NCBI RefSeq assembly: GCF_009363255.1 | Contig: NZ_CP045318.1 | Coordinates: 1,216,001 to 1,280,000 of the forward strand | Source: Roseivivax sp. THAF197b | Lineage (GTDB): Bacteria > Pseudomonadota > Alphaproteobacteria > Rhodobacterales > Rhodobacteraceae | DNA: 64,000 nucleotides | Direction: 5' to 3' | In this document: positions 42,475-63,461 of the stretch, one piece after another | How positions within the stretch are numbered: position 1 is the first letter of the stretch | Layout: each line of letters opens with the position of its first letter | Notes under the pieces: generated by a model | The model's input: only the letters and a program-made list of their open reading frames with translations | The model's database searches: none | What the model was told of the DNA's origin: nothing | Translations under genes and position numbers: made by a program

Positions 42475-44628
42475 TTAATGTCGGACCACGATCTTGTTGC
42501 GAAGCAGGTCCGCGCCAATGCTGAAAGGTCCTTTTGGTGCATCGGCAAAATGCCTGTTCGAAAGTGGAACGGCCTTCGCCTCTTCCGGGGGCAAATCGTT
42601 GCGGCGGGGCGCATTTTCGATCTCGTCGGCGCTCTCGCCATATCCGGGAACGATGTCCTGCAACGTGCGCAGAACCATTGGCCGGTCCTGAAGCCGGGCG
42701 AAGGCTTCCAGCCGGTCGGCCCAGCGGCGCAATTCAGCGAGCGACACGCTGGCCGATGCCGCGGAGAGCACACCATCGATCCCACAGGCGGAGCGCGTCT
42801 CGAGCTTGTCGAAAAGCTCCTCGAACAGCTTCTCGCCGGGGCGCGTGCCGATGATCTTGATGGCGATGTCGCGCCCAGGCTCCATCCCGGACAGCCGGAT
42901 CATGCGTTCGGCGAGGTCGATGATCTTGATCGGCTCGCCCATGTCGAGCACGAAGATCGACCCCTTGTCCGTCTGCCGCTCGACGCCGTTTGCGGAGGCC
43001 ATGAGCGTGAGCTCCACCGCTTCGCGGATCGTCATGAAGAAACGCTCCATACGCGGATCCGTGACCGTCAGGGGCCCCCCGCAGGCGATCTGTTCCTTGA
43101 AGAGCGGAATGAGCGAGCCCGACGAGCCCAGAACATTACCGAAGCGCACCGTCATGAAGCGCGTATCGCTCTCGCGGGCTTCGCGGTCGAGGCCTGCGCA
43201 GTAAAGCTCGGCCACGCGCTTCGTGGCGCCCATCACGGAACTCGCATTCACGGCCTTGTCGGTCGAGATCTGCACCATCGCCTTGGCATTCACGCGCAGC
43301 GCAGCCTCGGCCACATTGCGGGTGCCCACGACATTGGTCAGCACACCCTGGCAGGGGTTCTTCTCGACGATCGGCACATGCTTCAGCGCCGCGGCGTTGA
43401 AGACGATATCGGGCTTGTGCTGCTGGAAGAAACGCTCCACGCGTTCCTTGTCGCGGATATCACAAATCTCGGAATGGCGATCCACTTCCGGGAAATAATG
43501 GGCGAGGTCCTTCGTCACGGAATACAGGTTGTATTCCGAGTGATCGAGCAGGAGCAGACTCTCGGGACCGTTCGCCGCGATCTGGCGGGCCAGCTCGCTG
43601 CCGATGGATCCGCCTGCGCCGGTCACGACCACGCGGGCGCCGGAAATCAGCCTGGCCATCCGGTGATGGTCGCACATGCGGGCAGGGCGTTGCAGCAGAT
43701 CGTCGGGCGCCACTTCGAGCGTCTTGAGCGGCTGCGCCTCCTCCAATTCGAAGGTTTCGCAAAGCCCGGCGAGTTTCCGAATTGCGATTCCACGGCCCTC
43801 GGCCCATTCGACCAGCGATTTGATCGCTTTCTGGTCGAATTGCGACGGGGCTTCCGTCAGCACGATCTGGCGCGGCATTTCCTTGCGGGTGCACCAATCC
43901 GCGACCGCGTCGATATCCCGGACAGATCCGACGATCGGGATGTCATGGAAAAACAATCCTTTGGAATCCTCGACCGAGTCGACGATCCCGATGGGGCGGT
44001 ATTCCGTATCGGAGGTGTTGCGCAACGCGCGCAGATACAGATCGCAGCTTGTCCCGGTGCCCACGAGCAGAAGCGGAATGCGGTTTTCGGTCTGAGCCCG
44101 CTTTTCACCATTCAGAACAGTTTCATACCGGCTGCCGATACGACGTGCGAGCCGCGATCCGCTGAGCAGGGGCATCGCGATAAAGAATGCGACAATCAGA
44201 GTGCCTAAATGCGGCTGAATGCTTATCATTCCGGACAGAGAGGCGATCGTCATTATCCCGATAACGATAGCGACGCCGGTGAAGGAGCTTAGAGCATCCG
44301 GGATTGATGCCGTTTTGGGATGGCGACGATACATGCCGGCCACGGGAAAGATGACCAGGGATGCCGCAGCGCCATATAAAATAAGGCCCGAAAGCGCTTT
44401 GTAGCCTGCTTCTCCAACAGGCATCCCGACTTGAAGAAGATATGCCGTGCAAAACGAAATCATCAGCAAAATCTGATCCGACACGGCCAGACGCTTGTGG
44501 GATTTCAACTCGCCGAAGATGCGACGGAGATATTGTGCTGTGGGACCGTTTCTCAGACCGGAGACTGCCGGTTCAGATCTTTGGTTCGTCCGGTTTGACC
44601 GGTTTCCCCTAATCGAAACAAAGGACAT
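42475..44628 (-). CDS. CapD/PglF-like UDP-sugar 4,6-dehydratase, membrane-anchored
   Basis: 717 residues. The N-terminus has about four membrane helices (~50-150), then a CoA-binding-like domain and an SDR dehydratase domain: RVVVTGAGGSIGSELARQIA (NAD site), STDKAVNASSVMGATKRVAE where Met takes the position of the usual catalytic Tyr, as in PglF. This class makes UDP-4-keto-6-deoxy-GlcNAc from UDP-GlcNAc. GGGAGA lies five bases before ATG 44628. It would feed the DegT aminotransferase at the other end of the locus. The ~70-residue C-terminal tail is disordered. Confidence 0.95.
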   Translation of the reverse strand: MSFVSIRGNRSNRTNQRSEPAVSGLRNGPTAQYLRRIFGELKSHKRLAVSDQILLMISFCTAYLLQVGMPVGEAGYKALSGLILYGAAASLVIFPVAGMYRRHPKTASIPDALSSFTGVAIVIGIMTIASLSGMISIQPHLGTLIVAFFIAMPLLSGSRLARRIGSRYETVLNGEKRAQTENRIPLLLVGTGTSCDLYLRALRNTSDTEYRPIGIVDSVEDSKGLFFHDIPIVGSVRDIDAVADWCTRKEMPRQIVLTEAPSQFDQKAIKSLVEWAEGRGIAIRKLAGLCETFELEEAQPLKTLEVAPDDLLQRPARMCDHHRMARLISGARVVVTGAGGSIGSELARQIAANGPESLLLLDHSEYNLYSVTKDLAHYFPEVDRHSEICDIRDKERVERFFQQHKPDIVFNAAALKHVPIVEKNPCQGVLTNVVGTRNVAEAALRVNAKAMVQISTDKAVNASSVMGATKRVAELYCAGLDREARESDTRFMTVRFGNVLGSSGSLIPLFKEQIACGGPLTVTDPRMERFFMTIREAVELTLMASANGVERQTDKGSIFVLDMGEPIKIIDLAERMIRLSGMEPGRDIAIKIIGTRPGEKLFEELFDKLETRSACGIDGVLSAASASVSLAELRRWADRLEAFARLQDRPMVLRTLQDIVPGYGESADEIENAPRRNDLPPEEAKAVPLSNRHFADAPKGPFSIGADLLRNKIVVRH

Positions 44629-45257
44629 TATAATCTCCCGAAAACAAAAACACTATAAAACACTGAGAGTTAGCAGCACAAAACAACAGGGCCGCTGCCG
44701 AATGACAGCGAAAGACGAAAGGTGGTTGCCGCCCGGAGGCGGCAGAATTAATTTCACGCTGCCTTTCGGCACCGATGAAAAGTAGACTTCAATAATGTGG
44801 TCGCGCCGCTCCCCCCAGGGCGCAGAAACAACATCTGCATATTTACCCTTCGTTAACCTTTGCGCAAAGAGAATCTGTCGAAATTGCGGCGAGCGGCAAC
44901 TTTGGGGCGATGTGAAGATTATCCGCACAACCTAGTGTTGTTTATTGCGCGAAAAGACCGCCATTTGAGAGAAAGAGCGTCCGAAAACGCGAATCGCCTG
45001 AGGTCTGGAATACCTCCATTAGAGGTCTGAGCATCGAATCGGAATAAATCCAGAAGCATTACGATTGCAGCTATTATGCTGAGATCGAAATAGGATTTTC
45101 AACAATCAATCACGGAAACTCGCATTGTCGAGACGGAATGCGGTGCAAGTCGCGTCTTGGGTGTCCGGACCCATGGCCATTCCCTTGATTGCCCCTAAGG
45201 CATGCGCAACCTCGGTCTTCGACATCGCGCAACCGGACACCACGGAAAGGTGCGAAC
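44629..45257. other. 629-bp intergenic region upstream of the capD-like gene
   Basis: No convincing gene. The part from 44840 to 45110 is AT-rich; a GCCGCCCGGAGGCGGC hairpin lies near 44730-44745. It should contain the promoter of the minus-strand capD-nitroreductase-flippase series. A 91-codon frame (44653-44928, minus) has no recognisable features. Confidence 0.5.
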
Positions 45258-45977
45258 TCACTGGTGGTGCGGGCCCGTCGAAGGATCGCTGTCTTCCCTC
45301 CGCAGCTGCAATCGAGCCCAGATCGGCAAGTGATCGGACGCAACGCGCGTATGGGCGCCGTGATGCACGCCGGATTCAGCGACGGTCACAAGCGTGCCAT
45401 GCGCGATCCCGTCGAGCGAGGCCACCGGACGGGCGGCGTGAAAACTGGGGCCGGGCGTCACGAGCTTGAAATCCCGCGCCCAGGGCTCATAGCCGGAGGT
45501 ATCGGACCATTCATTGAAATCCCCCGCGATCAGCGCACCCGGTGCTGCATCGCCCAGATGCTGACGGATCTGCCGCATCTGTCGACGCCGCCAGCTGCGC
45601 AATAGCCCGAGATGGGTGCCGACGACGGTCAATCCCTCGATCCGCGCCATCACCGCGCCGCGTGGCTCAAGCCCCGGCAGGTCGAAATGCTGGGTCTTCT
45701 CGACCGAGAGGCCGCGCCGCACGAGGATCGCATTGCCATGCCAGCCCAGGCTGACCTTGTTGCGCGCCAGATCGGCGGGCACGTAATCGGTTTCCTGCGC
45801 GATCAGGAAGTGCGGCAAGGCCGAGGGGCGGGCGCCGAGCCGCTTGTCGGCCTCCTGCAGGACGACGATGTCGGCGTCGATCTCGGTCAGGACAGCCAGG
45901 ATCCGGGCGGGATCGCGTTTCCAGTCGAGTCCCACCGCCTTGCGGATATTGTAGCTGGCCAGCGTCAGTTCGGTCAT
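45258..45977 (-). CDS. endonuclease/exonuclease/phosphatase family protein
   Basis: 239 residues with the motifs of the EEP fold: LASYNIRKAVGLDW (Asn), VVLQEADKRLG (metal Glu), VVGTHLGLLR, LIAGDFNEWSD (Asp/Asn) and the C-terminal ASDHLPIWARL (catalytic His). It hydrolyses phosphodiester or phosphate bonds in nucleic acid or lipids; no signal peptide is present. Its start overlaps the stop of the PLD gene by 4 bp, so the two form an operon, perhaps in lipid or membrane turnover. Confidence 0.9.
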   Translation of the reverse strand: MTELTLASYNIRKAVGLDWKRDPARILAVLTEIDADIVVLQEADKRLGARPSALPHFLIAQETDYVPADLARNKVSLGWHGNAILVRRGLSVEKTQHFDLPGLEPRGAVMARIEGLTVVGTHLGLLRSWRRRQMRQIRQHLGDAAPGALIAGDFNEWSDTSGYEPWARDFKLVTPGPSFHAARPVASLDGIAHGTLVTVAESGVHHGAHTRVASDHLPIWARLQLRREDSDPSTGPHHQ

Positions 45978-47392
45978 AGCACCGGCGCCAGGAGCCGCGC
46001 GACGGGCGCGCCGATGCGGATATAGAGAGGCTGCTCCGAAAGCGGCGTGTCGACAATCGTGCTGTCGATGAAATCGTCTTTCAGCATCGCCGCGACCTTG
46101 GCGGTCAGCGCCCCGTCGAAAACCAGCGCCATCGTCTCGAAGTTCAGCCGAAAGGAGCGATTGTCGAGATTGGCCGAGCCGATCGCCACCATCTCGTCAT
46201 CCATGACGACGACCTTCTGATGCGTGAAGCCGCGGTCATATTGGTGAATGGTCACGCCCGCCGCGCGCACCTCGTCGAAATAGGCATGCGCGGCAAGCCA
46301 GGTGAGGTAGTGATCGACATGGCGGGGCAAAAGCAGCTGCACGTCGCAGCCGCGCAGGGCCGCGGATTTCAGGGCGGAGAGGATCGCCTCGTCTGGGACG
46401 AAATAGGGGGAGGCGATCCAGACCCGGGATTGCGCGCGCGACAGCGCGGTAAAGAAGAACATCGCCGCCGTGTCCATCTCGTCGGTGGGACCGGCGGGCA
46501 GGATCAGCGCGGGCAGGTCTGCATCGCGCGGCGCGGGCGACCAGTCGAGCACCTCGTCCAGCCGTTCCTGCGTCGCCCAGTGCCAATCCTCGAAGAAGAC
46601 GGTCTGCAGTTGGGCGACGACCGGGCCCGACAGCGCGATATGCGTGTCGCGCCAATGCCCGCCGGGCGCGTCCTTGCCCATATAAAGGTCCGAGACATTG
46701 TGTCCGCCGATGAAGCCCACATTGCCATCGACCACCACGGTCTTGCGGTGATTGCGGAAATTGACCTCGAAGCGCTTGGTGGGACCACGCGCCTTGCGCG
46801 GATTGAGGATCGTCACGCCGGCGGCGCGCAACCTCTCGGGATAGGCCGCGGACAGCCCGTAGCTGCCGACACCGTCATACATCACCCGCACCGAGACGCC
46901 GCGCTCGGCCGCGGCGATCAGGCGATCCGCCAGCCTGCCGCCCAGATCATCATCGGCAATCGTGTAGAATTGCACGCAGACATAAGACTTCGCTGCGTCG
47001 ATGGCCTCGAAGATGGCGGCGAAGGTTTCCTCCCCGTCGATCAGAAGCGCCGCATCATTGCCGCCCAGCACCCGCATGCCCGCGAGCTTCTCGAACGGCG
47101 CATAAAGCGTGCGGCGATCTTCATCGGGCAGGGGCGTCTCGGTGCGCGCATCGAGATCCTGCGCCAGGGCCCGCGAGGCGCGGCGCGTGCGTTCGTAGCG
47201 TTTCAGCTTGTGGCGGCCGAAGACCAGATAGGAGGGCAGGGCGAACCAGGGGGCCGCCAGAAGGAACACGACCCAGGCCGCCGCCCCTTGCGGCGTGCGC
47301 GCAGAGACGATCGCCCGCCAGACCGTGTAGATCACGAGGATCGGCGCGAGGAATGCCAGAGCGGCCAGAATATAGGAATCGAAAAAGGTCAT
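45974..47392 (-). CDS. PLD-domain protein, cardiolipin synthase-like
   Basis: 472 residues. Two N-terminal membrane helices (~5-25 and 36-57) precede two phospholipase D motifs: NFRNHRKTVVVDGNVGFIGG and FTHQKVVVMDDEMVAIGSAN, each with H-x-K-x4-D. This layout is that of bacterial cardiolipin synthase ClsA-type enzymes, which join two phosphatidylglycerols. ATG 47392 gives the usual membrane start MTFFDSYILAALAFLAPILV; a longer frame to 47443 is not homologous. It is coupled to the downstream EEP gene. Confidence 0.93.
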   Translation of the reverse strand: MTFFDSYILAALAFLAPILVIYTVWRAIVSARTPQGAAAWVVFLLAAPWFALPSYLVFGRHKLKRYERTRRASRALAQDLDARTETPLPDEDRRTLYAPFEKLAGMRVLGGNDAALLIDGEETFAAIFEAIDAAKSYVCVQFYTIADDDLGGRLADRLIAAAERGVSVRVMYDGVGSYGLSAAYPERLRAAGVTILNPRKARGPTKRFEVNFRNHRKTVVVDGNVGFIGGHNVSDLYMGKDAPGGHWRDTHIALSGPVVAQLQTVFFEDWHWATQERLDEVLDWSPAPRDADLPALILPAGPTDEMDTAAMFFFTALSRAQSRVWIASPYFVPDEAILSALKSAALRGCDVQLLLPRHVDHYLTWLAAHAYFDEVRAAGVTIHQYDRGFTHQKVVVMDDEMVAIGSANLDNRSFRLNFETMALVFDGALTAKVAAMLKDDFIDSTIVDTPLSEQPLYIRIGAPVARLLAPVL

Positions 47393-47559
47393 GCGCGAAA
47401 TGTAACGCAGATGCCGGCACTTGCATGGGGAAATGCAGATCAAGCCGCGTGATGGCGCCGATCGGACCGGTCAGGATTTCGGTTTTACCCCTCGCATGTC
47501 CACTGTTAGCGTTCACATCAACATTGTCTTGATTTGCGATTGAATGAACGGAGGACGAC

Positions 47560-48894
47560 ATGCAGCTGTCACTCTCGCGCGCGGATTTCCCCGACGGCTT
47601 CGAGCTTGGCGCGTCCACCGCCGCCTACCAGATCGAAGGCACGGCCGCAGGGGGCACGGGCCCGTCCCATTGGGACAGCTATGCCGCCACCCCGGGGAAC
47701 GTGGTGCGCGGCGAGGATGGCCGCATCGCCTGTGACCATTACCACCGGTTCGAGGAAGACCTCGATCTGGTGCGGGACGGCAATTTCGACACCTACCGTT
47801 TCTCGACCTCCTTCGCGCGGGTGATGCCGGACGGGCGGACGCCCAATGCCGAGGGGCTCGACTTTTATGACAGGCTTGCCGATGCCATTGCGGCGCGGGG
47901 CCTCAAGGCCTCGCTCACGCTGTATCACTGGGATCTGCCCTCGGCGCTTGCGGATCAGGGCGGCTGGGCCAACCGGGACGTGGCGGATCGCTTCGCCGAT
48001 TACACCCGCGTCGTGATGGAGCGGATCGGCGACCGGATGGACAGCGTGGCCACGATCAACGAGCCGTGGTGCGTGGCCTGGCTCAGCCATTTCATGGGGC
48101 TTCAGGCGCCTGGCCTGCGGGACATCCGGGCGGCCTCGCGCGCGATGCATCATGTGCTTCTGGCCCATGCCAAATCGCTCGAGGTGATCCGGGAGGTGAC
48201 GCCTGACCTCAAGGCCGGGATCGTGCTGAATTTCACGCATACCCATGCCGCGAGCGACGCCGAGGCCGACAAGCAGGCCGCGCATACCTTCGACGGGATT
48301 CACAATCGCTGGTTCGTCGAGGCTCTGACCAAGGGCCGGTACCCCGAGGATATCGCGAGCGCGCTCGGCCCCCATATGCCCGAGGGATGGCAGAAGGACA
48401 TGGCCGCGATTTCGGCGCCGATCGACTGGCTTGGCGCCAATTATTACACGCGCACCACGTTGCGCCATGTCGAGGACAGCCTCTGGCCACATCTCGAAGA
48501 CGTGCCCGGGCCGCTTTCGAAGACCGATATGGGGTGGGAGATCTATCCCGACGGTCTGCGTGCGCTGCTGGTGCGGCTGGCGCGCGATTATACGGGCGAC
48601 ACGCCTCTGGTCGTGACGGAAAACGGCATGGCGGGCGACGATCATCTCGTCGACGGTCAGATCGGTGATCCGGTGCGCGTACAATATTTCGAGGATCATC
48701 TGGGCGCCGTCCGCTCCGCGATCGCGGAGGGCGCGCCGGTCACGGGCTATTACGCCTGGTCCTTGATGGACAATTACGAATGGTCCTTCGGCTACGACAA
48801 GCGCTTCGGCATCATCTACGTGGATTACGAGACGCAGGCACGCGTGCCGAAAGCATCTTACCACGCGCTGCGGGACGCCTTCGCGCGGGGGTGA
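47560..48894 (+). CDS. GH1 beta-glucosidase
   Basis: 444 residues, normal for GH1. The acid/base Glu is in ATINEPWCVAW (residue ~168) and the nucleophile Glu in VVTENGMAGDD (~354). The opening FPDGFELGASTAAYQIEGTA and closing MDNYEWSFGYDKRFGIIYVD are family signatures. It cleaves terminal beta-glucosides or related sugars in the cytoplasm, as no signal peptide is seen. GGAGG lies just upstream of ATG 47560. It is divergent from the cls-like gene and convergent with the cytochrome gene. Confidence 0.96.
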   Translation: MQLSLSRADFPDGFELGASTAAYQIEGTAAGGTGPSHWDSYAATPGNVVRGEDGRIACDHYHRFEEDLDLVRDGNFDTYRFSTSFARVMPDGRTPNAEGLDFYDRLADAIAARGLKASLTLYHWDLPSALADQGGWANRDVADRFADYTRVVMERIGDRMDSVATINEPWCVAWLSHFMGLQAPGLRDIRAASRAMHHVLLAHAKSLEVIREVTPDLKAGIVLNFTHTHAASDAEADKQAAHTFDGIHNRWFVEALTKGRYPEDIASALGPHMPEGWQKDMAAISAPIDWLGANYYTRTTLRHVEDSLWPHLEDVPGPLSKTDMGWEIYPDGLRALLVRLARDYTGDTPLVVTENGMAGDDHLVDGQIGDPVRVQYFEDHLGAVRSAIAEGAPVTGYYAWSLMDNYEWSFGYDKRFGIIYVDYETQARVPKASYHALRDAFARG

Positions 48895-48916
48895 GCATCG
48901 GCACGCTTTCCGTGCG

Positions 48917-49384
48917 TCACTCGGCCTGGATCGACTCCAGATATGTGACCAAAGCGGTGATCCGCCCGAAGGCCAGCGCCTGTGCATTCACGTCATGCGG
49001 GACGCCCGCAGCGCGGTCGGCCGCGTTCTGGAAATAGCGATAACCCCAGACCGGCATGCCGCGATCGCCATGCGGATTGATCATGTTGCGCCCGTCGATC
49101 AATTGCCGGACATCGTCCGCCGGAAAGCTGCCACTGAAACGCGCGCTGAGCGTGGTCAGGTCGGGCGGCTTGTTTGTCAGAACGTCGGCCACGGGTCCGT
49201 CGCCCAAGCCCGAGGCCCCGTGGCACGAGGCGCAATGGGCCATGTATTCCGATTGCCCCAGCATGATCTCTGCATCGCGGTCGAGCGCCGTGGCAGGGCC
49301 CGCCACGGTCAGACTGGCCAGCGCCATGGCTGCGCTCAGGATCCTGTGCTGGATCGGATGAAATCGGAACGGTCGATGCGTCAT
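48917..49384 (-). CDS. class I c-type cytochrome
   Basis: 155 residues with a signal peptide (ILSAAMALASLTVAGPATA). One heme site CASCHGASGLGDGP at residues 51-55; a probable axial Met is in RGMPVWGYRYF. It is a periplasmic single-heme protein of the kind found as a subunit or electron carrier; partner unknown. It starts at ATG 49384 and is a single gene between the GH1 gene and an intergenic stretch that leads to the repeat-protein terminator. Confidence 0.9.
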   Translation of the reverse strand: MTHRPFRFHPIQHRILSAAMALASLTVAGPATALDRDAEIMLGQSEYMAHCASCHGASGLGDGPVADVLTNKPPDLTTLSARFSGSFPADDVRQLIDGRNMINPHGDRGMPVWGYRYFQNAADRAAGVPHDVNAQALAFGRITALVTYLESIQAE

Positions 49385-49594
49385 GGTTTGGCTCCCCCCT
49401 GAAAACGTGCGGTCCGGACGGCGATGCGATTGCCGCGCGTTGTCGTCCGGGCAATTGCCGAGGGGATACCATGCGCGGCGCGGTCTCGGTTGATGCAGGT
49501 CAATCGGGGGCGCAGCGTGTGTCCGGTTGAACCTAACGCATCATGCATGACCCCATGTGCGCCCGAGGCCGTGCAATGCTCAATTCTCAGGGGC

Positions 49595-49627
49595 GGGGAG
49601 CGGTGACCGCCCGGATCGCCGCTCCCC
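49595..49627 (-). terminator. hairpin downstream of the repeat-protein gene
   Basis: GGGGAGCGG (49595-49603) and CCGCTCCCC (49619-49627) form a perfect 9-bp stem with a 15-nt loop, 19 bp after the stop of the minus-strand repeat gene. There is no T-run on the minus strand, so termination strength is uncertain. Confidence 0.5.
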
Positions 49628-49646
49628 GTCTTTGCATCAGGATCCC

Positions 49647-50684
49647 TTAGAAGATCCCGCCGAGCAGGCCATCCTCCTCCGCATCGTCATCGCAGTCATG
49701 GGCCTTGTCGTGGTCTTCCTCGGACGGCTTGGAGGACGATGTGTCGAGCGCCGCCAGCAGCGCCGCCCCATCCAAGGGCGCGGCATCCGCATGACCACCG
49801 CCGAGACCAAGGTCCACGAGATTGTCGACGTCGATGCCCTTGTCGCCACCGATGGAGGCCTCTTCGAGTACGTCGATATCGAGACCGTTCTCGTCCGCGT
49901 CGACATTCGCGAGGTTGTCGATGTCGATGCCCTTGTCGCCGCCGATGGAGGCCTCTTCGAGTACGTCGATCTCGAGACCATCCTTGCCCCCGTCGACATT
50001 CGCGAGGTTGTCGACATCGATGCCCTTGTCGCCACCGGTGGAGGCTTCCTCGAGCACGTCGATATCTAGGCCGTCCTTGCCCGCGTCGACATTCGCGAGG
50101 TTGTCTACATCGATGCCCTTGTCGCCGCCGATGGAGGCTTCTTCCAGCACATCGATATCGAGGCCTTTCTTGTCCGCATCGACATTCACGAGATTGTCGA
50201 TGTCGATACCCTGATCGCCGCCGATGGAGGCCTCTTCGAGCACGTCGATCTCGGCACCGTCCTTGCCCGCGTCGACATTCGCGAGGTTGTCGACATCGAT
50301 TCCTTGGTCACCGCCGATGGAGGCTTCTTCGAGCACGTCGATGTCGAGGCCTTCCTTGTCCGCGTCGACATTCGCGAGGTTGTCGACGTCGATGCCTTGG
50401 TCACCGCCGATGGAGGCTTCTTCGAGCACGTCGATCTCGACACCGTCCTTGCCCGCGTCGACATTCGCGAGGTTGTCGATGTCGACGCCCTGATCGCCGC
50501 CGATGGAGGTCTCTTGACCGATATCGAGGCTCAGGCCAGCCCCATCTGACGCATTGTCTGCGCCGGATGTGTCGGACCCCTCCTTGCCTGATTGATCCTG
50601 CGAGAAGAGCTCACGGATCTGCGCTTCTTTTTCATTGATCAAGTGTGTAGCGGTGGCGAGGCCACTCTTGACGAAGTTGAACAT
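49647..50684 (-). CDS. acidic protein with eight 31-residue tandem repeats
   Basis: 345 residues from ATG 50684, with GGGAGAAGCGACG just upstream. Residues 1-~32 form an amphipathic helix-like start (MFNFVKSGLATATHLINEKE); a Ser/Asp/Gly-rich stretch follows. Residues ~55-290 hold eight near-identical 31-residue units built on EASIGGDQGIDVDNLANVD; the eighth is cut short. The C-terminus is Asp/Glu-rich and ends EEDGLLGGIF. No signal peptide, membrane helix or cysteine in the repeat region. GGDxGID recalls RTX calcium repeats but the unit length and sequence differ. I do not recognise the family. It is divergent from tadE/tadG across ~530 bp. Confidence 0.85.
   Translation of the reverse strand: MFNFVKSGLATATHLINEKEAQIRELFSQDQSGKEGSDTSGADNASDGAGLSLDIGQETSIGGDQGVDIDNLANVDAGKDGVEIDVLEEASIGGDQGIDVDNLANVDADKEGLDIDVLEEASIGGDQGIDVDNLANVDAGKDGAEIDVLEEASIGGDQGIDIDNLVNVDADKKGLDIDVLEEASIGGDKGIDVDNLANVDAGKDGLDIDVLEEASTGGDKGIDVDNLANVDGGKDGLEIDVLEEASIGGDKGIDIDNLANVDADENGLDIDVLEEASIGGDKGIDVDNLVDLGLGGGHADAAPLDGAALLAALDTSSSKPSEEDHDKAHDCDDDAEEDGLLGGIF
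49815..50530 (-). repeat. 93-bp tandem repeats, eight copies
   Basis: The anchor GATGGAGGC (or one-base variants) recurs at 49851, 49944, 50037, 50130, 50223, 50316, 50409 and 50502, each exactly 93 bp apart. Copies differ mainly at silent sites and at a few residues (Q/K, V/I, D/G). The exact phase and high identity point to expansion by slippage or recombination, so copy number may vary between strains. Antisense frames stay open through the array and are artefacts. Confidence 0.9.
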
Positions 50685-50700
50685 CGTCGCTTCTCCCTTA

Positions 50701-50791
50701 TTGTTGAACAAAGAGCGCTGACAGCCACGGATATACAGGTCGTCCTGTTTCAAGTTGTTTCGGAAACAGTTCGTTTGATGCTTGTTAACAA
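50701..50791 (-). promoter_or_regulatory. three palindromes upstream of the repeat-protein gene
   Basis: TTGTTGAACAA (50701-50711), TGTTTCGGAAACA (50756-50768) and TTGTTAACAA (50782-50791) are perfect palindromes packed into 91 bp just before the gene. The first and third share TTGTT/AACAA arms. A looser TGTT-TT-AACA element lies near the tadE side at 51157-51166. They could be operators of one dimeric regulator. Confidence 0.4.
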
Positions 50792-51214
50792 ATGCGACCT
50801 AGATAGATGCAATTTTATATTTGTATTCATTCATGTTCTGAATGATGACCGCGTAGGGCGCACATGGGTTGTACATAAAAAAGTCTGATTTATCGGCGCG
50901 CCAAAAATATGCGTCGCGATAAATTGGTGGCGCTAATAAATGAAACTCCTGATTGGTTTGCGGCCTTATTTCAGGCTAAGTTATTTATTGGTCGAAACAT
51001 AATCCAAAAGTAGTAGATCGAATCCCGTCTCTTACATGGATTCATTCTAAATATCGGATTTTTCGAGTAAAAAATATGTTGGGTGCTTTCTGAGATCCGC
51101 TGGCTTCACTTAACACTTTTGCGAGACCGCAAGGCGCTGACCTAGTTTTGCCACATTGTTTTAACATGCAGGTCACCAGCGAGAGTGCGAATAAATGATA
51201 TAGGGAGGTATGAC
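50792..51214. other. AT-rich divergent intergenic region between the repeat protein and tadE-like genes
   Basis: About 420 bp, roughly 40% G+C, with no supported gene. It should carry promoters for both divergent units. It joins the palindrome block at its left end. Confidence 0.5.
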
Positions 51215-51667
51215 ATGTCATATCCAGATTATCGTTTTAAGCGGTTGCGGTGTTTTTCAAAGTGCGAAAGCGGTTCTGTTACGGTTGAATTCGCTATCAT
51301 CTTCCCGGCCTTCATCTTTCTGCTGCTGGCGGCGTTCGCGGCCACGCAATATATCTGGACGATCAGTGAGGTTCAGCAGTTCAGCTCGGACCTGGCGCGG
51401 CAATCCCTGCGATTCCTGGTGTCTGACCTGGAAGGGGCGGAGCTCTGTGTTGCGTTGCAGCATTCTGCCTTCGAACGCGTATCGGCCGAGTTGATCTTCT
51501 TCGATCCGCAACACATCCAGTCGGTGAGCTGCACCTATATCGAGGACCCGGCCGGTCTTCATGTGTCCGTGTCCTATGCCACGAACCATCTGTTCTTCAG
51601 CGGATTTCTGGACGCGGTCGGCCTCGACACGGAGCAGACCACGCAAGACGCGGTCTTCCTGCTATGA
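51215..51667 (+). CDS. TadE-like protein
   Basis: 150 residues. A short cytoplasmic start (MSYPDYRFKRLRCFSKCESG) leads to the TadE prepilin-like segment SVTVEFAIIFPAFIFLLLAA with the conserved Glu five residues after the Gly-Ser, then an exported domain with two cysteines (ELCVALQ, VSCTYIED). TadE-like pseudopilins are processed by a TadV-type peptidase in Flp pilus systems; none of the motor genes is in this window. GGGAGG precedes ATG 51215. Its stop overlaps the next start by 4 bp. Confidence 0.85.
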   Translation: MSYPDYRFKRLRCFSKCESGSVTVEFAIIFPAFIFLLLAAFAATQYIWTISEVQQFSSDLARQSLRFLVSDLEGAELCVALQHSAFERVSAELIFFDPQHIQSVSCTYIEDPAGLHVSVSYATNHLFFSGFLDAVGLDTEQTTQDAVFLL

Positions 51668-53208
51668 CGGTCATGGCGAGATTTTTCCGACGCGAAGAGG
51701 GCGGGATTTCCGTCCTTTCGCTGCTGATGCTGCCGGTGTTCCTGATCGTGCTGGCGCTCGGCCTCGACTTCGTCCTGCTGAACGCGAACCGCAAGCATGT
51801 CCAATCCCAGGCGGATCTGGCCGCGATCAGCGGGGCGCTCAACCTCGAAAGCCGTGCGGAGAGCATGGAGGCGATCCGCGCCTCCGTCGCCGTCAACGAC
51901 TTCTTCGAAGCGGGCAGGGTGCATGACGACGATATCGCTTTCGGCACATTCGCGACATCAGGGTCCTTCACCCCGCTGAGCGACGCGGTGATCGATCATT
52001 CGCCTCATCTCGTCGAGGGGGTGCGGGTGGATGTGACCGGCGACGCGCCATTTTCCCTGCTGAGTCGCTATCTCGACGTGGACGGTTTCGCATTTTCGCG
52101 GTCCGCCACGGCGATACGACAGCCGCGGGTCTCCTTCGCCCTGTCGAATTGCCTGCTGTCGCTGGAATTGTACAAGCAGGCCCTCGCAGGGATTGCAGGA
52201 CTTGATACGGACGTTTTGTGCTCCGGTGAGGGCGTGCGCGTGAATGCGGTTGAGCTGTTTTCGGCGCTTGCGGTCGAGGGCGATGCCCTGAACTATTCGA
52301 GCACCTATGGCGACGTGCTGGATGCGGAGTTCGAGGTTTCGGAGCTGTTGAGCGCGGTTCTCGGGCGATCTGTGCCGCCGATTGGCGACACCCTGCGCCT
52401 GGGCGACATGATTTACATGCCGAGTGATCTGCGACGACTGACGATTGGCAGCCCCATCGACGGGATCGAGATCTCTGCCGCCGATCTGGTGTTCGGCGCG
52501 GTCGAGCTTTTGGGGGACCGGCTGCTCGATGCGGCGCTCGAGATCGATCTTGAGCCGCAGGGGCGGGTCTCGGCGCATCTGCATGTCGGTGAGCCACGCA
52601 AAATCGTGGTGGGCGCGAGGCCCGGCGATCCAAACGCGCGCGCGCGCACCTCGCAGATCAGCCTCTTGATTGAAGGCTCGGACCTCTTGTCGTTGACCGG
52701 GCTCAAACTGAAGGTCGAAATTGCCAGCGCCGAGGCGCAGCTGGCCGCCAAAAGCGAGGTCTGCTCACGCGACACGAACCGGATCGCGGTGCATTTCGAC
52801 CCTGTCCAAGTGGATTTGGTCGATATCGGTGTGAGCCTCTCGACGCCGCTTCTGCCGATCTCCGTTACGGATCTGACCGCCTATGTCCCGTTGCTCGGTC
52901 GGGAGCGAAAGGAGGCCTTGCGCTTCTCCCAAGACGAGATCGACCGGGGAGCGCGCAAAGAGGTCGCGTATATGCGGGTGAACGACCTGCAGAAACTGAA
53001 GAAGGAGCTGGAGGAGAGCCTGTCTGCCATATTGCAGCAGGAATTGCTGACCTCCGGGCTGTTCTCGGGCAGCACGCCGGTCTCGTTCTTCAAGAAGCGC
53101 GAAAACAGCGAAAAGGAGATCCTCTCCCGGTCGCTGCTGAACCTGGCGCTTGTGCCATCCTATCTCGAGGTGCTGAATATCGACTGCGATGTTCAACTCG
53201 TGGAGTAA
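51664..53208 (+). CDS. TadG-like protein
   Basis: 514 residues. The N-terminal module is EGGISVLSLLMLPVFLIVLA with a following SQADLAAISGALNLE, the TadG-like prepilin region; the remainder is exported and of unknown fold, with few cysteines (CLLSLE, CSGEG, CSRDTN and a late DIDCDVQL). No clear von Willebrand A motif is seen. ATG 51664 overlaps the tadE-like stop (ATGA). Together the two may form a surface structure or an anchor separate from a full tad locus. Confidence 0.84.
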   Translation: MTVMARFFRREEGGISVLSLLMLPVFLIVLALGLDFVLLNANRKHVQSQADLAAISGALNLESRAESMEAIRASVAVNDFFEAGRVHDDDIAFGTFATSGSFTPLSDAVIDHSPHLVEGVRVDVTGDAPFSLLSRYLDVDGFAFSRSATAIRQPRVSFALSNCLLSLELYKQALAGIAGLDTDVLCSGEGVRVNAVELFSALAVEGDALNYSSTYGDVLDAEFEVSELLSAVLGRSVPPIGDTLRLGDMIYMPSDLRRLTIGSPIDGIEISAADLVFGAVELLGDRLLDAALEIDLEPQGRVSAHLHVGEPRKIVVGARPGDPNARARTSQISLLIEGSDLLSLTGLKLKVEIASAEAQLAAKSEVCSRDTNRIAVHFDPVQVDLVDIGVSLSTPLLPISVTDLTAYVPLLGRERKEALRFSQDEIDRGARKEVAYMRVNDLQKLKKELEESLSAILQQELLTSGLFSGSTPVSFFKKRENSEKEILSRSLLNLALVPSYLEVLNIDCDVQLVE

Positions 53209-53530
53209 TTGGGCACTGACAACCGGCGCGTCGGTTTCGCATATGCGACGGCCGTAGATTGGCTCTTGACGGCTTGAGCTATCACACGCACCCGGCCTCG
53301 GCCCTCGCGCTTGGCCCGTTGCGCGCGCCTGCGTGATTGCTAGGGATGTTTGCAGAGCCCAGCGCGAGGGGATCCGTGATCGAGCACAACTCTTGAGAGA
53401 CGATCCACGCTCACTGGAGGTGCGACGGATTACCCATCCTCGAAAACCACTTCCACATGCTCAACAGACGTCGCCTGAGCGCCTGACCGGCGCGCATTCG
53501 ACGCGAAGTCCATACATCTATTGAGTGAAA
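53209..53530. other. 322-bp intergenic stretch between tadG-like and tRNA-Ser(CGA)
   Basis: No gene supported. AACCG/CGGTT arms around GCGCGT (53221-53236) and the perfect palindrome TCGCATATGCGA (53237-53248) follow the tadG-like stop by 13 and 29 bp; they may form a transcript end but lack a T-run. Confidence 0.45.
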
Positions 53531-53620
53531 TGGCGGAGAGACAGGGATTCGAACCCTGGGACCCCGTGAAGGGTCAACGGTTTTCGAGACCGCCCCGTTC
53601 GACCACTCCGGCACCTCTCC
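53531..53620 (-). tRNA. tRNA-Ser (anticodon CGA)
   Basis: Minus-strand acceptor stem GGAGAGG pairs with CCTCTCC-like GTCTCTCC end; D-arm TGCCGGAGTGGTCGAACGG; anticodon stem-loop CGGTCTCGAAAACCG with CGA; long class II variable arm; T-arm AGGGTTCGAATCCCT; encoded CCA at 53533-53531. It lies upstream of and divergent from the DUF2059 gene. Confidence 0.96.
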
Positions 53621-53766
53621 GCGGGGGTCTGGTGCGGCCCAATACCCAAGGCCGGGGGCGCTTGCAACCCGGAGTGCGATGAATTTTGCGATGCAACGCT
53701 CGAATGGTTGGAAACGGGGCGGGCGGCACGTATCTGTTGAGGCAGACCAAGCAAGGAGCGACTGGC

Positions 53767-54612
53767 ATGTTCATGCGACATTTCGTGGGTGGGATCGGGC
53801 TCGCAATCGGCACGCTGGCCGCCCCGGCGCAGGCGCAGTCCGAGGATCTGGATGCCTTGATCGCGTTTTTGCGGATCGACGACACGGTCGAGATCATGCG
53901 CGCCGAAGGGCAGGAATATGCCAACGAGCTTGCGGTCGACATGCTGGGCGGCGTCAACGCAAGCTGGCAGGCGACGGTCGACGCGATCTACGATGCGGGC
54001 ACGATGGAAAGCAGCGTCACCAGAGGCTTCCGCGAGGCCATCGATCCCGAGGCCGTGGGCCCTCTGCTCGCGTTCTTCGAAAGCGATCTCGGCCGGGAGG
54101 TGGTGGCGCTGGAGATCGGCGCGCGGGAGGCGCTGCTCGACGAGGCCATTGAAGAGGCCGCCCGCGCGGAATACCGCGAACTGACCGGCACCGGCGATCC
54201 CAAGCTGCAACTGACCGGCGATCCCAAGCTGCAACTGATCGAGCGGTTCATCGATGCCAATGACCTGATCGAGCAGAACGTGACCGGGGCGCTCAACGCC
54301 TCTTACGCGTTCTATTCGGGCCTGTCGGAAGGCGGCGCGCTGCAGTTGAGCGAGGAAGAGATGCTCGATGATATCTGGAGCCAGGAAGAGGCCACCCGGA
54401 GTGACACGGAAGAATGGGTCTGGGGCTACCTGATGATGGCCTACGGGCCGCTCTCCGAGGACGAGCTTTCCGAATACGTGGCGCTGTCGGAAAGTGCGGC
54501 GGGCGAGGCGCTGAACAAGGCGCTCTTTGCGGGCTTCAACGCCATGTATGACGAGATTTCCTACGCGATGGGTCTCGGTGCCGCGGTGGAGATGGCAGGG
54601 ACCGACCTCTAG
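53767..54612 (+). CDS. DUF2059 domain-containing exported protein
   Basis: 281 residues from ATG 53767. A signal peptide (FVGGIGLAIGTLAAPAQAQ) precedes helical DUF2059-like segments: DTVEIMRAEGQEYANELAVD, FREAIDPEAVGPLLAFFESD and SEDELSEYVALSESAAGEAL. Near residue 143 the octapeptide TGDPKLQL is present twice in a row. Function unknown; periplasmic location likely. GGAGCGACTGGC precedes the start. It stands between tRNA-Ser(CGA) and rplU. Confidence 0.85.
   Translation: MFMRHFVGGIGLAIGTLAAPAQAQSEDLDALIAFLRIDDTVEIMRAEGQEYANELAVDMLGGVNASWQATVDAIYDAGTMESSVTRGFREAIDPEAVGPLLAFFESDLGREVVALEIGAREALLDEAIEEAARAEYRELTGTGDPKLQLTGDPKLQLIERFIDANDLIEQNVTGALNASYAFYSGLSEGGALQLSEEEMLDDIWSQEEATRSDTEEWVWGYLMMAYGPLSEDELSEYVALSESAAGEALNKALFAGFNAMYDEISYAMGLGAAVEMAGTDL
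54190..54237 (+). repeat. perfect 24-bp tandem duplication in the DUF2059 gene
   Basis: Two identical 24-bp copies (54190-54213 and 54214-54237) beginning ACCGGCGATCCC encode TGDPKLQL twice in frame. Complete identity suggests a recent slippage event. Confidence 0.9.
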
Positions 54613-54658
54613 TCTCGGTTTAGGGCCGGATTCGGGCGGTTTTCCCCGGTCGCGGCGC

Positions 54659-54687
54659 TTGACAGGGGCGCGGATGCTGCGCATAAG
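54659..54687 (+). promoter_or_regulatory. candidate rplU-rpmA promoter
   Basis: A perfect -35 TTGACA (54659-54664) and CATAAG (54682-54687) with a 17-nt spacer, leaving a leader of ~140 nt before rplU. Confidence 0.55.
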
Positions 54688-54834
54688 CGCTGCTCTGACA
54701 GGTGGGGCTTTGCGCCCCGCTTGTCGTTTTGAATTCATGACGCCCGATCGGGCGCGCTGTTCGAGGCGGGGATGGTCCCCGAAATTCCGCCACAGGGCGG
54801 GGCCACAGGACGCGGAAGCAAAAGGAAGACGCGC

Positions 54835-55518
54835 ATGTTCGCGGTAATGAAGACCGGCGGCAAGCAATACAAGGTTCAGGCGGGCGATACGCTCCGCGTG
54901 GAAAAGCTTGCGGCTGATGCTGGTGAAAAAGTCCAGTTCAACGAGATTCTGATGCTGGGTGGCGACAGCACCACGGTTGGCGCGCCGTTCGTCGATGGCG
55001 CGGCCGTGCAGGCCGAGATCGTCGACCAGGTCAAGGGTGACAAGGTCATCCACTTCGTGAAGCGTCGCCGGAAGCACTCCTCGCAGCGCACGAAGGGCCA
55101 CCGTCAGCAGCTGACGATGATCCGCGTGACCGACATCCTGGCCTCCGGCGCGGATGCATCCGGTGTGAAGGCCGCGATCGGCGCGGGCGTTCTGCCCCGC
55201 GGCCTCGGCGAAGAGAAGTACGTCGCCAACCGTGCCGAGCAGTCGGACATGAAGGCGCGCGTGAAGAACGACGAAGCGCAGGAAAAGCCCGCCGCAGAGG
55301 CAGGCGTGTCCGAGGGCGCGAAGGACGACCTCAAGCAGCTTTCGGGTGTGGGCCCGGCGCTTGAGAAGAAGCTGAACGAGGCTGGCGTCACAAGCTTTGC
55401 GCAGATCGCCGCATGGACCGAAGCCGACGTCGAGGAATTCGGCGAGAAGCTGTCGTTCAAGGGCCGCATCGAGCGTGAAGGCTGGATCGATCAGGCCAAA
55501 GAGCTGTCGAAGAAGTAA
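54835..55518 (+). CDS. rplU: 50S ribosomal protein L21 with C-terminal helix-hairpin-helix extension
   Basis: 227 residues, twice the usual ~103. Residues 1-~103 are L21: MFAVMKTGGKQYKVQAGDTL and VIHFVKRRRKHSSQRTKGHR, binding 23S rRNA. After a linker rich in Ala/Glu/Lys, residues ~158-225 form a helix-hairpin-helix-like unit: DDLKQLSGVGPALEKKLNEA, then SFAQIAAWTEADVEEFGEKL. Such extended L21 proteins are known in Rhodobacteraceae. ATG 54835 is the L21 start. rpmA follows after 12 bp. Confidence 0.95.
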   Translation: MFAVMKTGGKQYKVQAGDTLRVEKLAADAGEKVQFNEILMLGGDSTTVGAPFVDGAAVQAEIVDQVKGDKVIHFVKRRRKHSSQRTKGHRQQLTMIRVTDILASGADASGVKAAIGAGVLPRGLGEEKYVANRAEQSDMKARVKNDEAQEKPAAEAGVSEGAKDDLKQLSGVGPALEKKLNEAGVTSFAQIAAWTEADVEEFGEKLSFKGRIEREGWIDQAKELSKK

Positions 55519-55530
55519 GGAGAGACACCC

Positions 55531-55800
55531 ATGGCACATAAAAAAGCAGGCGGTTCCTCCCGCAACGGTCGCGACTCTGCCGGACGCCGTCTTGGCGTCA
55601 AGCTTTACGGCGGTCAGCGCGCGATCCCCGGCAACATCATCGTGCGTCAGCGCGGCACCAAGTTCTATCCCGGCGAAGGCGTCGGCATGGGCAAGGACCA
55701 CACGCTGTTCGCGACGGGCGAAGGCTCCGTGACGTTCCGCAAGGGCCTCAAGGGTCGTACCTTCGTGTCGGTCCTGCCAGTGGCCGAGGCCGCAGAGTAA
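55531..55800 (+). CDS. rpmA: 50S ribosomal protein L27
   Basis: 89 residues of ordinary L27: [20 protein letters not shown], then [20 protein letters not shown]. It lies near the peptidyl-transferase centre. There is no cleavable N-terminal extension. AAGGAGAGACACCC precedes ATG 55531. A terminator follows. Confidence 0.98.
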
Positions 55801-55826
55801 GCACCGCCGCGTATCGGACACCATTC

Positions 55827-55855
55827 AGGGGATCGGCGGCACGCCGGTCCCCTTT
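55827..55855 (+). terminator. Rho-independent terminator of rplU-rpmA
   Basis: AGGGGA-TCGGCG, loop GCAC, GCCGG-TCCCCT, then TTTGT: a long GC stem with a short T-tract, 27 bp past the rpmA stop. Confidence 0.75.
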
Positions 55856-56011
55856 GTCATTCCGACCCCGCGCCGCGCGGTGTGCCGCGTTCGAAGTCAT
55901 TAAACTTCGTGCTGTCACATGCATTCCGCGATCCCGCGTCATACATGACATTACAGGGCTGACCGAACCGGGGAGGGGGCGGTGCAGTTCGATCCCAGGA
56001 GGAGACCCGTC

Positions 56012-58786
<2,775 letters not shown>

Positions 58787-58832
58787 TCCGTGCTAGGATC
58801 GAGCAGGTTTTACGGGCCGGAGGGCGAGTGAG

Positions 58833-60098
58833 ATGAAAGATCAGGACAACATCACGGCGCTGATGGATGATATCGGGGCACGCGCCAAGCGCGCCGCGTC
58901 GGAGTTGGCCTTTGCAGCACCGGAGACCAAGACCCGCGCCCTCGAAGCGGCGGCGGATGCGATGGGCGCGCATTTGACCGAAATCCTCGCGGCCAACGAG
59001 AAAGATCTCGAATATGGCCGCGAAAAGGGCCTGAGCGACGCGATGATGGATCGCCTGAAGCTCGATCCGTCCCGCGTGGCGGCGATGGCGAAGGCCTTGC
59101 GCGACATCGCGGCGCTGCCTGATCCCGTGGGCTCGGTCATCTCCGAATGGGACCGGCCGTCGGGGTTGCACATCCGGCGCGTGCGCACGCCCCTCGGCGT
59201 GATTGGCGTTATTTATGAAAGCCGTCCCAACGTGACCGCCGATGCCGGTGCGCTATGCCTGAAGGCGGGCAATGCTGTGATCCTGCGCGGCGGCTCGGAA
59301 AGCTTCCATTCCTCCGCCGCGATCCATGCCTGCCTTGTGGAAGGCCTGCGCGCCGCAGGTCTGCCGGAGGATGCGATCCAGCGGGTGCCCACGCGGGATC
59401 GCGACGCGGTGAGCCACCTTCTGGGCATGACGGATCATGTCGACGTGATCGTGCCGCGCGGGGGCAAGGGGCTCGTGGGCCTCGTCCAGCGCGAAGCACG
59501 GGTCCCGGTCTTTGCCCATCTCGAGGGCATCGTGCACATCTATATCGACAAGGCCGCGGACCCGCAGATGGTGCTCGACGTGGTGATGAACGCCAAGACG
59601 CGCCGCACCGGGATTTGCGGCGCGGCGGAATGCCTGCTGATCCATGAAGACGTGGTCGACACGATCGGGCAGGGCGTGATCCGCGCGCTGATCGATGGCG
59701 GTGTCGAGGTGCGCGGCGATGCGCGCCTGGCCAAAATTCCCGGTGTGAAACCCGCCTGTGACGCCGATTGGGGCTGCGAATATCTCGACATGATCATCGC
59801 GGCGAAGGTCGTGCCCGATGTGGACGGCGCCATCGCGCATATCGGGCAGCATTCGTCGTCGCATACCGAGTGCATCCTGACCGAAGATGCCGAGACGGCA
59901 GCGCGGTTCTTTGCCCGGGTCGATTCCGCGATCGTCATGCACAACGCCTCGACGCAATTCGCCGATGGGGGCGAGTTCGGCATGGGCGCGGAAATCGGGA
60001 TCGCCACGGGCAAGATGCATGCGCGCGGACCGGTGGGCGTCGAGCAGCTGACGAGCTTCAAGTATCTCGTGACCGGAAACGGGACGACGCGCGGCTGA
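58833..60098 (+). CDS. proA: glutamate-5-semialdehyde dehydrogenase
   Basis: 421 residues, ALDH-superfamily enzyme reducing gamma-glutamyl phosphate with NADPH. Family features are [34 protein letters not shown] and the catalytic cysteine in [19 protein letters not shown] (~270). The C-terminus [19 protein letters not shown] is typical. GGAGGGCGAGTGAG precedes ATG 58833. After the stop a GC hairpin (GGGCGACGCC/GGCGTCGTCCC) around 60106-60126 may aid termination. Confidence 0.98.
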
Positions 60099-60314
60099 GC
60101 GGTCGGGGCGACGCCGGGCGTCGTCCCTGCGCCAAAGGGTCGGCTTCGATCAGGGCGGGTGTCGCAGGGGATCGTTTGAACGAGCTGAGCGGGTTGCACG
60201 GGCCGCACGTCTCGCAATGGTGCGACGTGGCGCGGTGATTTAGCTGCGTGACTCGGTTGGGCGGCCCTTGTTCGCGCCGGGACTTTGCCTATTCAGCGCG
60301 TCGGCGTGACGGCC

Positions 60315-60938
60315 TCAGATTGTCAGCGTCAGCCGAGTCTCGCCATGGGCGACCGATATCGCGCGGCCGAGCTCGGCGGCAATCATCGGCAGCAGCACGA
60401 ATTGCACATGCGCCGCCGCGGGGGGCGTTGCCATGGGCGTACCGGTCAGCGCGGACCAGAGCTTCGGATCGACCGACAGATGATCCGCCTCCACCTGCAA
60501 CTGCCAATGCCCACCGCCGTGAGTGATGACGATTGCGCCTCCGCGCGGTAACGCCGTCTCCAGGCACAGATATGCCAAGAGAGCGATCTGTAATTCACGG
60601 CGCGGGACATCCGAGGTCACGCGCCAATCGGGGTTCTGGCGCGCATCCCGGCTATATTCCGCCAGGATCGACCGGGCTTCTGACGCGGCGACCATCTGTT
60701 CGGACGTGACCTGAGAGCCGAAGGCTACGCGGAAGAACCGGATACGGGCCTGGGCTGCCCGACAGGATTCCGAGACAAGCGCGAGTTCGGGGCTGTCTGC
60801 GCTGCCCGGACCCATGCTCATCAACTCGATGCCGTTGCCGATCGCGCCGATAGGTGAAATGAGGTCATGGCAGATGCGCGAGCCTATCAGCGCCGCCAAC
60901 TCTGCGTTACCGTGCTGGGGAACCACTATATCATGCAT
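60315..60938 (-). CDS. chpT: histidine phosphotransferase ChpT
   Basis: 207 residues. The dimerisation/H-box helix has ALIGSRICHDLISPIGAIGN (phospho-His in ICHDLI), followed by a degenerate ATPase-like domain without ATP motifs (ELQIALLAYLCLETALPRGG, AAHVQFVLLPMIAAELGRAI). ChpT passes phosphate from CckA to CtrA and CpdR in alphaproteobacterial cell-cycle control; in Roseobacters the system also governs motility and gene-transfer agents. It is divergent from the DUF3553 gene by 11 bp between start codons. Confidence 0.9.
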   Translation of the reverse strand: MHDIVVPQHGNAELAALIGSRICHDLISPIGAIGNGIELMSMGPGSADSPELALVSESCRAAQARIRFFRVAFGSQVTSEQMVAASEARSILAEYSRDARQNPDWRVTSDVPRRELQIALLAYLCLETALPRGGAIVITHGGGHWQLQVEADHLSVDPKLWSALTGTPMATPPAAAHVQFVLLPMIAAELGRAISVAHGETRLTLTI

Positions 60939-60949
60939 GAGGCCGACCG

Positions 60950-61138
60950 ATGTCCGAGGATCTGAACGCGATGCTGGAGCCGGGCATGCTGGTCGAGCAT
61001 CCCGACCGGCCCGATTGGGGACGGGGACAGGTGCAGTCCAACATAAACGGGCGCATCACGGTGAACTTCAGGGATGAGGGCAAGGTTGTCATCGATGGGT
61101 CCCGCGTGTTCCTGATTCCTGTCTTCGGAGAAGGCTAG
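60950..61138 (+). CDS. DUF3553 domain small protein
   Basis: 62 residues. MLEPGMLVEHPDRPDWGRGQ and VQSNINGRITVNFRDEGK fit DUF3553, a short SH3-like barrel of unknown role. It is divergent from chpT with only 11 bp between the start codons, so the promoters must overlap the opposite coding regions. Confidence 0.88.
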   Translation: MSEDLNAMLEPGMLVEHPDRPDWGRGQVQSNINGRITVNFRDEGKVVIDGSRVFLIPVFGEG

Positions 61139-61148
61139 AGCCGATTGC

Positions 61149-61164
61149 TTAGCAGAACCTTAAC
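61149..61164 (+). promoter_or_regulatory. candidate CtrA box upstream of olsB
   Basis: TTAG-N7-TTAAC (spacer CAGAACC) matches the CtrA consensus TTAA-N7-TTAAC at all but one position. It lies 75 bp before olsB and just after the DUF3553 gene. Other placements in GC-rich DNA would be rare, but no binding evidence exists. Confidence 0.4.
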
Positions 61165-61238
61165 ACGGGATCGCCGTGCCGTTGCAATCGCCCCGCGTGC
61201 TGCCTAGGAAGGCAGCGACTGAAACGGAGACCGCCTGC

Positions 61239-62857: not shown

Positions 62858-63007
62858 CCGGGAGTGATCGCGTGCAAGGGCCCTGGCGATTATCTGCGAT
62901 CCTGCGCCCGCGCATCGCATCTGGCAGTCCCGCAGGCACTAGGCGCGGGACGCCGCAGCGCATATATGCTAAGTAACGAATATATCTCCGGGGGGAAGCG
63001 GAAGATC

Positions 63008-63457: not shown

Positions 63458-63461
63458 CGCG

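Follow-up and report, generated by a model that had tools for sequence, protein, structure and literature searches.

The gene for an acidic repeat protein lies at 49647-50684 of the window (the whole stretch of 64,000 nucleotides analysed). From left to right, the locus shows a cytochrome c gene, the repeat gene, TadE, TadG and tRNA-Ser(CGA):

48917..49384, minus strand: cytochrome c gene, with a 76% identical relative in the congener G005
49647..50684, minus strand: acidic repeat protein gene, ATG at 50684, 345 aa; by eye, a GGGAG ends 8 nt before the ATG
49650..49814, minus strand: C-terminal tail, residues 291-345, starting with DLGLGGG, followed by an acidic stretch and ending in DGLLGGIF
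49815..49850, minus strand: truncated eighth unit, residues 279-290
49851..50501, minus strand: seven complete 31-residue units, residues 62-278
50502..50537, minus strand: degenerate half-copy ahead of copy 1, residues 50-61, recognised by eye
50538..50684, minus strand: N-terminal segment, residues 1-49, with an AlphaFold2 (AF2) helix predicted at 2-28 (single sequence, low confidence) and, by eye, without a Sec signal
51215..51667, plus strand: TadE-like gene, divergent from the repeat gene (Pfam TadE, 35.3 bits, cut-off 22.9)
51664..53208, plus strand: TadG-like gene (Pfam Tad PF13400, 28.7 bits, cut-off 22.3)
53531..53620, minus strand: tRNA-Ser(CGA), a conserved anchor that serves as an integration hotspot in the genus

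Genomic neighbourhood

Both genes of the divergent pair exceed their Pfam cut-offs. The divergent intergenic region (50685-51184) is AT-rich, with a GC content of 0.39 and 0.42 in the blocks of 50750-51250 in a window of 63% GC, and a promoter and terminator scan of this region gave nothing better than shuffles. Beyond the tRNA, a perfect 24-bp tandem duplication (two copies, 54190-54238) is located within the ORF 53686-54612.

When the region 44100-64000 was compared with eight congeners (33 candidates scored per genome), the matches began at tRNA-Ser(CGA) and extended rightwards in all eight, and from about 49300 to 53527 none of the eight showed a match among those listed. The TadG protein found, besides its own genome, weak matches only in G004 of the genus set (best 2.2e-5). 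The stretch occupied by the repeat gene and the two Tad genes is therefore, within the set, peculiar to this genome. ARAGORN places tRNA-Ser(CGA) in all eight congeners, and a survey of integrases beside it spans loci L070-L078: phage integrases above the Pfam cut-off adjoin the tRNA in G001 and G006, and G005 shows an ORF beside it with integrase-like matches below the cut-off, as well as, on another contig, which bears its cytochrome c gene, a tRNA fragment of 65 bp. The adjoining integrases and the tRNA fragment mark this tRNA as an integration hotspot of the genus. A search of the window with the tRNA sequence at E 0.001 yields the tRNA itself and tRNA-Ser(GGA) and nothing else. The repeat gene may have arrived by integration at tRNA-Ser(CGA).

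Relatives of TadG (E 1e-8 or better) are present in 11 other genomes, each of another genus, among 394 genomes of the family, and these contain 12 TadG loci. The surface or export role at which the initial annotation hinted from the Tad pair finds a parallel at one of them, L055 (genome G100), where the gene for a Gly/Asp tandem-repeat protein, its N-terminus signal-like, runs divergently from TadE/TadG; at the other 11 no such divergent protein was seen in the fetched stretch, which in L057 covers about 0.7 kb upstream. Arrays with a period of at least 20 occur at L055 and, as two copies only, at L051, L058 and L061. The L055 gene (L055:5449-6138) shares with the studied locus the divergent orientation, a cytochrome c gene beyond and IGGDSGV repeats, but it has a 14-residue (42-bp) period and, by eye, a signal peptide, and its cytochrome c gene is oriented oppositely.

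The repeat array and its coding frame

The 345-residue protein has a pI of 4.05 and a net charge of -76, and its charge and hydropathy fall on the disordered side. Its single cysteine is located in the C-terminal tail, so that the repeats are free of cysteine as first described, and the lack of a signal peptide also holds by eye: neither the N-terminus read from the ATG nor the upstream in-frame extension looks Sec-like. The GC3 of the gene is 0.76, and that of its neighbours 0.78-0.82.

The GGD[QK]G unit starts are residues 62, 93, 124, 155, 186, 217, 248 and 279, and each of the seven gaps is exactly 31 residues. TRF describes the array (49817-50515) with a period of 93 bp, 7.5 copies and a score of 992, in agreement with the spacing originally given, and scores an alternative, three-unit reading of 279 bp at 1104. 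The eight copies initially counted are right as unit starts, but only seven units are complete, the eighth being 12 residues long (GGDKGIDVDNLV). A further half-copy of 12 residues (GLSLDIGQETSI) precedes copy 1, by eye.

Between any two complete copies, 9-19 of 93 bases and 3-7 of 31 residues differ. Over the seven units the coding frame shows a pS of 0.32, a pN of 0.08 and a pN/pS of 0.25; the opposite-strand mirror frame reaches 0.27 but contains stop codons, and the remaining four frames range from 1.4 to 2.5. With a silent divergence of 0.32 between units, the copies are neither near-identical nor recent, and the recent expansion first proposed is not supported. The same pS set against a pN of 0.08 means that the sequence of the repeat protein has been kept: the array is under purifying selection. 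The antisense of the array (49797-50549, plus strand) is itself a 31-residue repeat of alternating V and D, with one TAG and otherwise open, and a tblastn search with the repeat protein finds the antisense strand of its own gene (E 6e-5).

The 31-residue unit shows a weak internal two-fold symmetry, equalled by 1 of 300 permutations, and the best split is 16 + 15. Its alignment with the Gly-rich repeats described below reads 14 + 17, unlike the symmetry test. The unit is possibly a doublet of two shorter repeats, of 14 + 17 or 16 + 15 residues.

Possible relatives of the protein and a Gly-rich 14-residue repeat class

Profile searches of the repeat protein gave no Pfam or NCBIfam family above the curated cut-off and no PHROGs family with E < 0.3; one NCBIfam and two PHROG rows lie at E 0.15-0.46. 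Two candidates were rejected on their bit scores: Jag_N (21.7 bits, cut-off 25) and Bombinin (14 bits, cut-off 21.4). No match was found among PDB sequences or, by tblastn, among plasmids and phages. Scans with peptide patterns, which detect close relatives only, returned 10 and 57 stretches in viral contigs and 67 and 225 in a collection of 84,980 species genomes, none confirmed by tblastn. In the genus set the gene is present in one of nine genomes, its own, and none of the eight congeners matched. Two of 394 family genomes matched, its own and G080, and the 31-residue repeat profile matched two of 385 genomes of the taxonomic class, its own and G674. The G080 match (7e-5, antisense to an ORF named Lrp-like by eye) and the G674 match (E 0.008, antisense to an ORF named KaiC-like by eye) were judged spurious. 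The statement that the unit belongs to no described repeat family thus stands for curated families; the broader one, that it is like no repeat known to the annotator, may have to give way to a resemblance to a Gly-rich 14-mer, with the antisense control given below as a reservation.

This 14-mer defines an undescribed class of Gly-rich tandem repeats of about 14 residues, approximately A-[SN]-[VIL]-G-G-[SD]-x-G-[VIL]-[ND]-[AV]-D-[AV]-[DN]. Its proteins are small, with signal-peptide-like N-termini and differing C-terminal regions (e.g., L099:6342-7082, L100:6265-7095, L055:5449-6138 and L095:2809-3513). Six members searched against Pfam gave no match; five sample heptapeptides of the class occur in none of the papers searched, among which nothing on the class was seen. 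The L055 protein as query matched seven of 388 genomes, its own included. A relative from G082 matched 30 plasmid records (29 of Sinorhizobium and one of Shinella), and P0003, from S. meliloti, matched 65 (64 of Sinorhizobium and one of Shinella). With P0003 as query, two of the eight congeners, G002 and G008, contain class members. The profile A2, built from the acidic repeat protein and relatives, matched seven of 384 family genomes, the source genome among them, and added to the L055 search the sites in G280 and G365 and one more in G213. The members L080-L082, L084-L086, P0003 and P0004 were reached from the protein of the TadG neighbour and not by the acidic protein; neither this protein nor its repeat profile, used as query, reached any member of the class. 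Six records of the Sinorhizobium relative show no clear change in copy number: a regular expression counts eight units in five and nine in one. Their ORF lengths are 188-236 in five records, and in the sixth (L115) there is no ATG ahead of the units in that frame.

P0003 (WQO39689.1, Sinorhizobium meliloti pSymB) and P0004 (WQO69453.1, S. medicae) show A-S-[VL]-G-G-S-x-G-V tandem units, which can be aligned with the 31-residue unit. They differ from the acidic protein in their 14-residue period, a Gly/Ser/Asn-rich composition with net charges of +6 and +7, a Sec-type N-terminus by eye and another C-terminal region. The repeat proteins of G002 (L099:6342-7082) and G008 (L100:6265-7095) belong to the same genus and contain similar stretches (LGGDKGISADVD and ASIGGGSGVDADAD), but they have a signal peptide by eye, a long repeat-free C-terminal region and other genomic sites. 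The acidic array, in contrast with the 14-residue period of the class, has a period of 31, so that it is at most derived from the class and not a plain member; the N-terminal Sec signal peptide of the class is also lacking in the acidic protein, by eye.

Likeness to the class and competing explanations

The likeness was evaluated against a permutation null in which the 31 columns were permuted identically in all seven copies, keeping composition and period, and 1000 versions were compared by local alignment. The number of permutations as good was 0 for P0003, P0004, L082 and L105, 2 for L098, 3 for L081, 4 for L055, 5 for L107, 10 for L086 and L097, 28 for L080, 37 for L106, 150 for L085 and 190 for L084. 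In a second null of 1000, which preserved the hydrophobic/polar pattern, it was 0 for P0003, P0004 and L082, 1 for L105, 7 for L081 and L098, 15 for L107, 27 for L097, 36 for L055, 37 for L086, 56 for L106, 66 for L080, 215 for L084 and 243 for L085. The two last members do not stand out from permutations of the acidic array. By these alignments, the acidic array has a statistical likeness to the Gly-rich class, which the control below weakens. The whole repeat protein matches P0003 by BLASTP with 43.1 bits (E 2e-9, for a single comparison), the parts flanking its array show no match to P0003 (score 28), and hhalign of the repeat profile against P0003 found nothing (probability 0.4%).

As a control, the six frames of all 14 members were run with 500 permutations. 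The true frames score 42-149 and the direct antisense frames 23-85. In the direct antisense frame, which is no gene, as few as 1 (L081, L106) or 0 (L086, L107) of 500 permutations were as good, with antisense scores of 70-85, below the 94-118 of the true frames of these members; an earlier run of the L106 antisense frame gave 1 of 1000. For the antisense frames of P0003, P0004, L082 and L105 the counts were 40, 61, 38 and 28 of 500. Since the antisense frames of four of the 14 members pass, the permutations set too low a bar for plain alternating arrays. In addition, L105-L107 are not independent, because they were found with the A2 profile that contains the acidic repeat protein, and neither is L055, which was picked for being a Gly/Asp-rich array. 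With the test lenient and L105-L107 not independent, P0003, P0004 and L082 have to carry the case.

These results have to be read against convergence, by which the acidic repeat would be an orphan of independent origin that resembles the Gly-rich 14-mers through a common patterning of strands and turns, with G-G turns and alternating hydrophobics, and not through descent. Convergence is a strong contender, as searches with the acidic protein reach no class member, four of 14 antisense frames pass, hhalign is silent, and in seven of the 14 members the reversed array scores as high as the true one or nearly so: higher for L055 and L084, equal for L080 and within 10% for L086, L097, L106 and L107. 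It is opposed by P0003, P0004 and L082, which were reached independently, gave 0 of 1000 in both nulls and score well below their true values of 147, 149 and 113 when reversed (75, 87 and 76) or in antisense (53, 44 and 43). The passing antisense frames lower the odds of descent and raise those of convergence, leaving the two close to even. Descent of the acidic repeat from the Gly-rich class is tentatively preferred as a little more likely than convergence, and we infer its direction to run from the more widespread Gly-rich form.

An RTX-like calcium-binding protein with type I export and a divergent C-terminal signal is improbable. RTX proteins (PF00353, HemolysinCabind) share Gly/Asp-rich tandem repeats with the acidic protein, the units of which are GGDxG and Asp-rich, and the same genome (G000) has 41 PF00353 matches, spread over several ORFs beyond the window. 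A hydrophobic C-terminal end after an acidic stretch fits a type I export signal, and the end of this protein would be compatible with one. However, the repeat gene is outside the 41 matches and does not match PF00353, its period is another, its spacing is GGDQGID and not GGxGxD, within the nonapeptide GGxGxDxUx, and five RTX ORFs of the same genome show no order-specific similarity to it (360-931 and 207-888 of 1000 in the two nulls). The initial view that the unit is not an RTX nonapeptide is supported.

Slightly less probable still is a cytoplasmic acidic beta-solenoid kept near a mobile-element hotspot as a DNA mimic, like the pentapeptide-repeat proteins MfpA and Qnr. The net charge of -76, the lack of a signal peptide by eye and the tRNA used by integrases in congeners would fit it, and MfpA, AlbG and Qnr are among the weak Foldseek matches of the AF2 model. 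These matches have E 0.27-0.34, with none of the 338 (E up to 10) at 0.001, no pentapeptide-repeat Pfam match was found, and the AF2 model fails its antisense control. Run without alignment, AF2 gives a beta-solenoid-like strand pattern for the repeat protein (best model pLDDT 62.3, pTM 0.58; array blocks mostly 64-75; five-model range 50.6-62.3). The antisense non-gene control, made without the low-confidence tails of the repeat protein, reaches 79.4 and 0.72 in its best model (range 36.5-79.4). The AF2 model therefore carries no weight here, and a beta-solenoid fold, a possibility raised in the initial annotation, is possible but unsupported. This outcome agrees with the AF2 bias described in PMC11795689, where 32 of 78 models of repeats fell into the beta-solenoid class. 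The locus is a natural example of AF2 giving its best model of a nonsense antisense frame more confidence than that of a real repeat protein.

An accidental open frame across a DNA repeat is scarcely credible, because although homologues were not found and the mirror antisense frame has a similar pN/pS, an ATG preceded by GGGAG, which resembles a ribosome-binding site, opens a frame of 345 codons, GC3 is close to that of the neighbours, and the low pN/pS is opposed by values above 1 in four of the other five frames, the fifth having stops.

In the preferred reading, descent from the class, the acidic protein would be a lineage-restricted, acidified offshoot of the Gly-rich repeats: two repeats of about 14 residues may have become one 31-residue doublet, in which Gly was replaced by Asp or Glu and which was then multiplied to 7.5 copies. 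Our best guess for its role is a cation-responsive structural polymer at the envelope. Extended and rich in charge, this polymer might have a structural or adhesive task; it would be loose by itself, cations of the Ca2+ type would compact it into stacked strands by neutralising Asp, and it would probably be placed at or outside the envelope by a non-Sec route. The full scenario is unlikely as a whole: a secreted Gly-rich repeat would have become an acidic doublet in one lineage, lost its signal peptide and taken a new place and job, as a cation-switched scaffold or an acidic decoy, in a unit with the orphan TadE/TadG at the tRNA hotspot. The Gly-rich 14-residue class may thus be the parent of an apparently orphan acidic repeat; without a Pfam match in the six members searched, the class is yet present on Sinorhizobium plasmids and in the genus and family of this organism.
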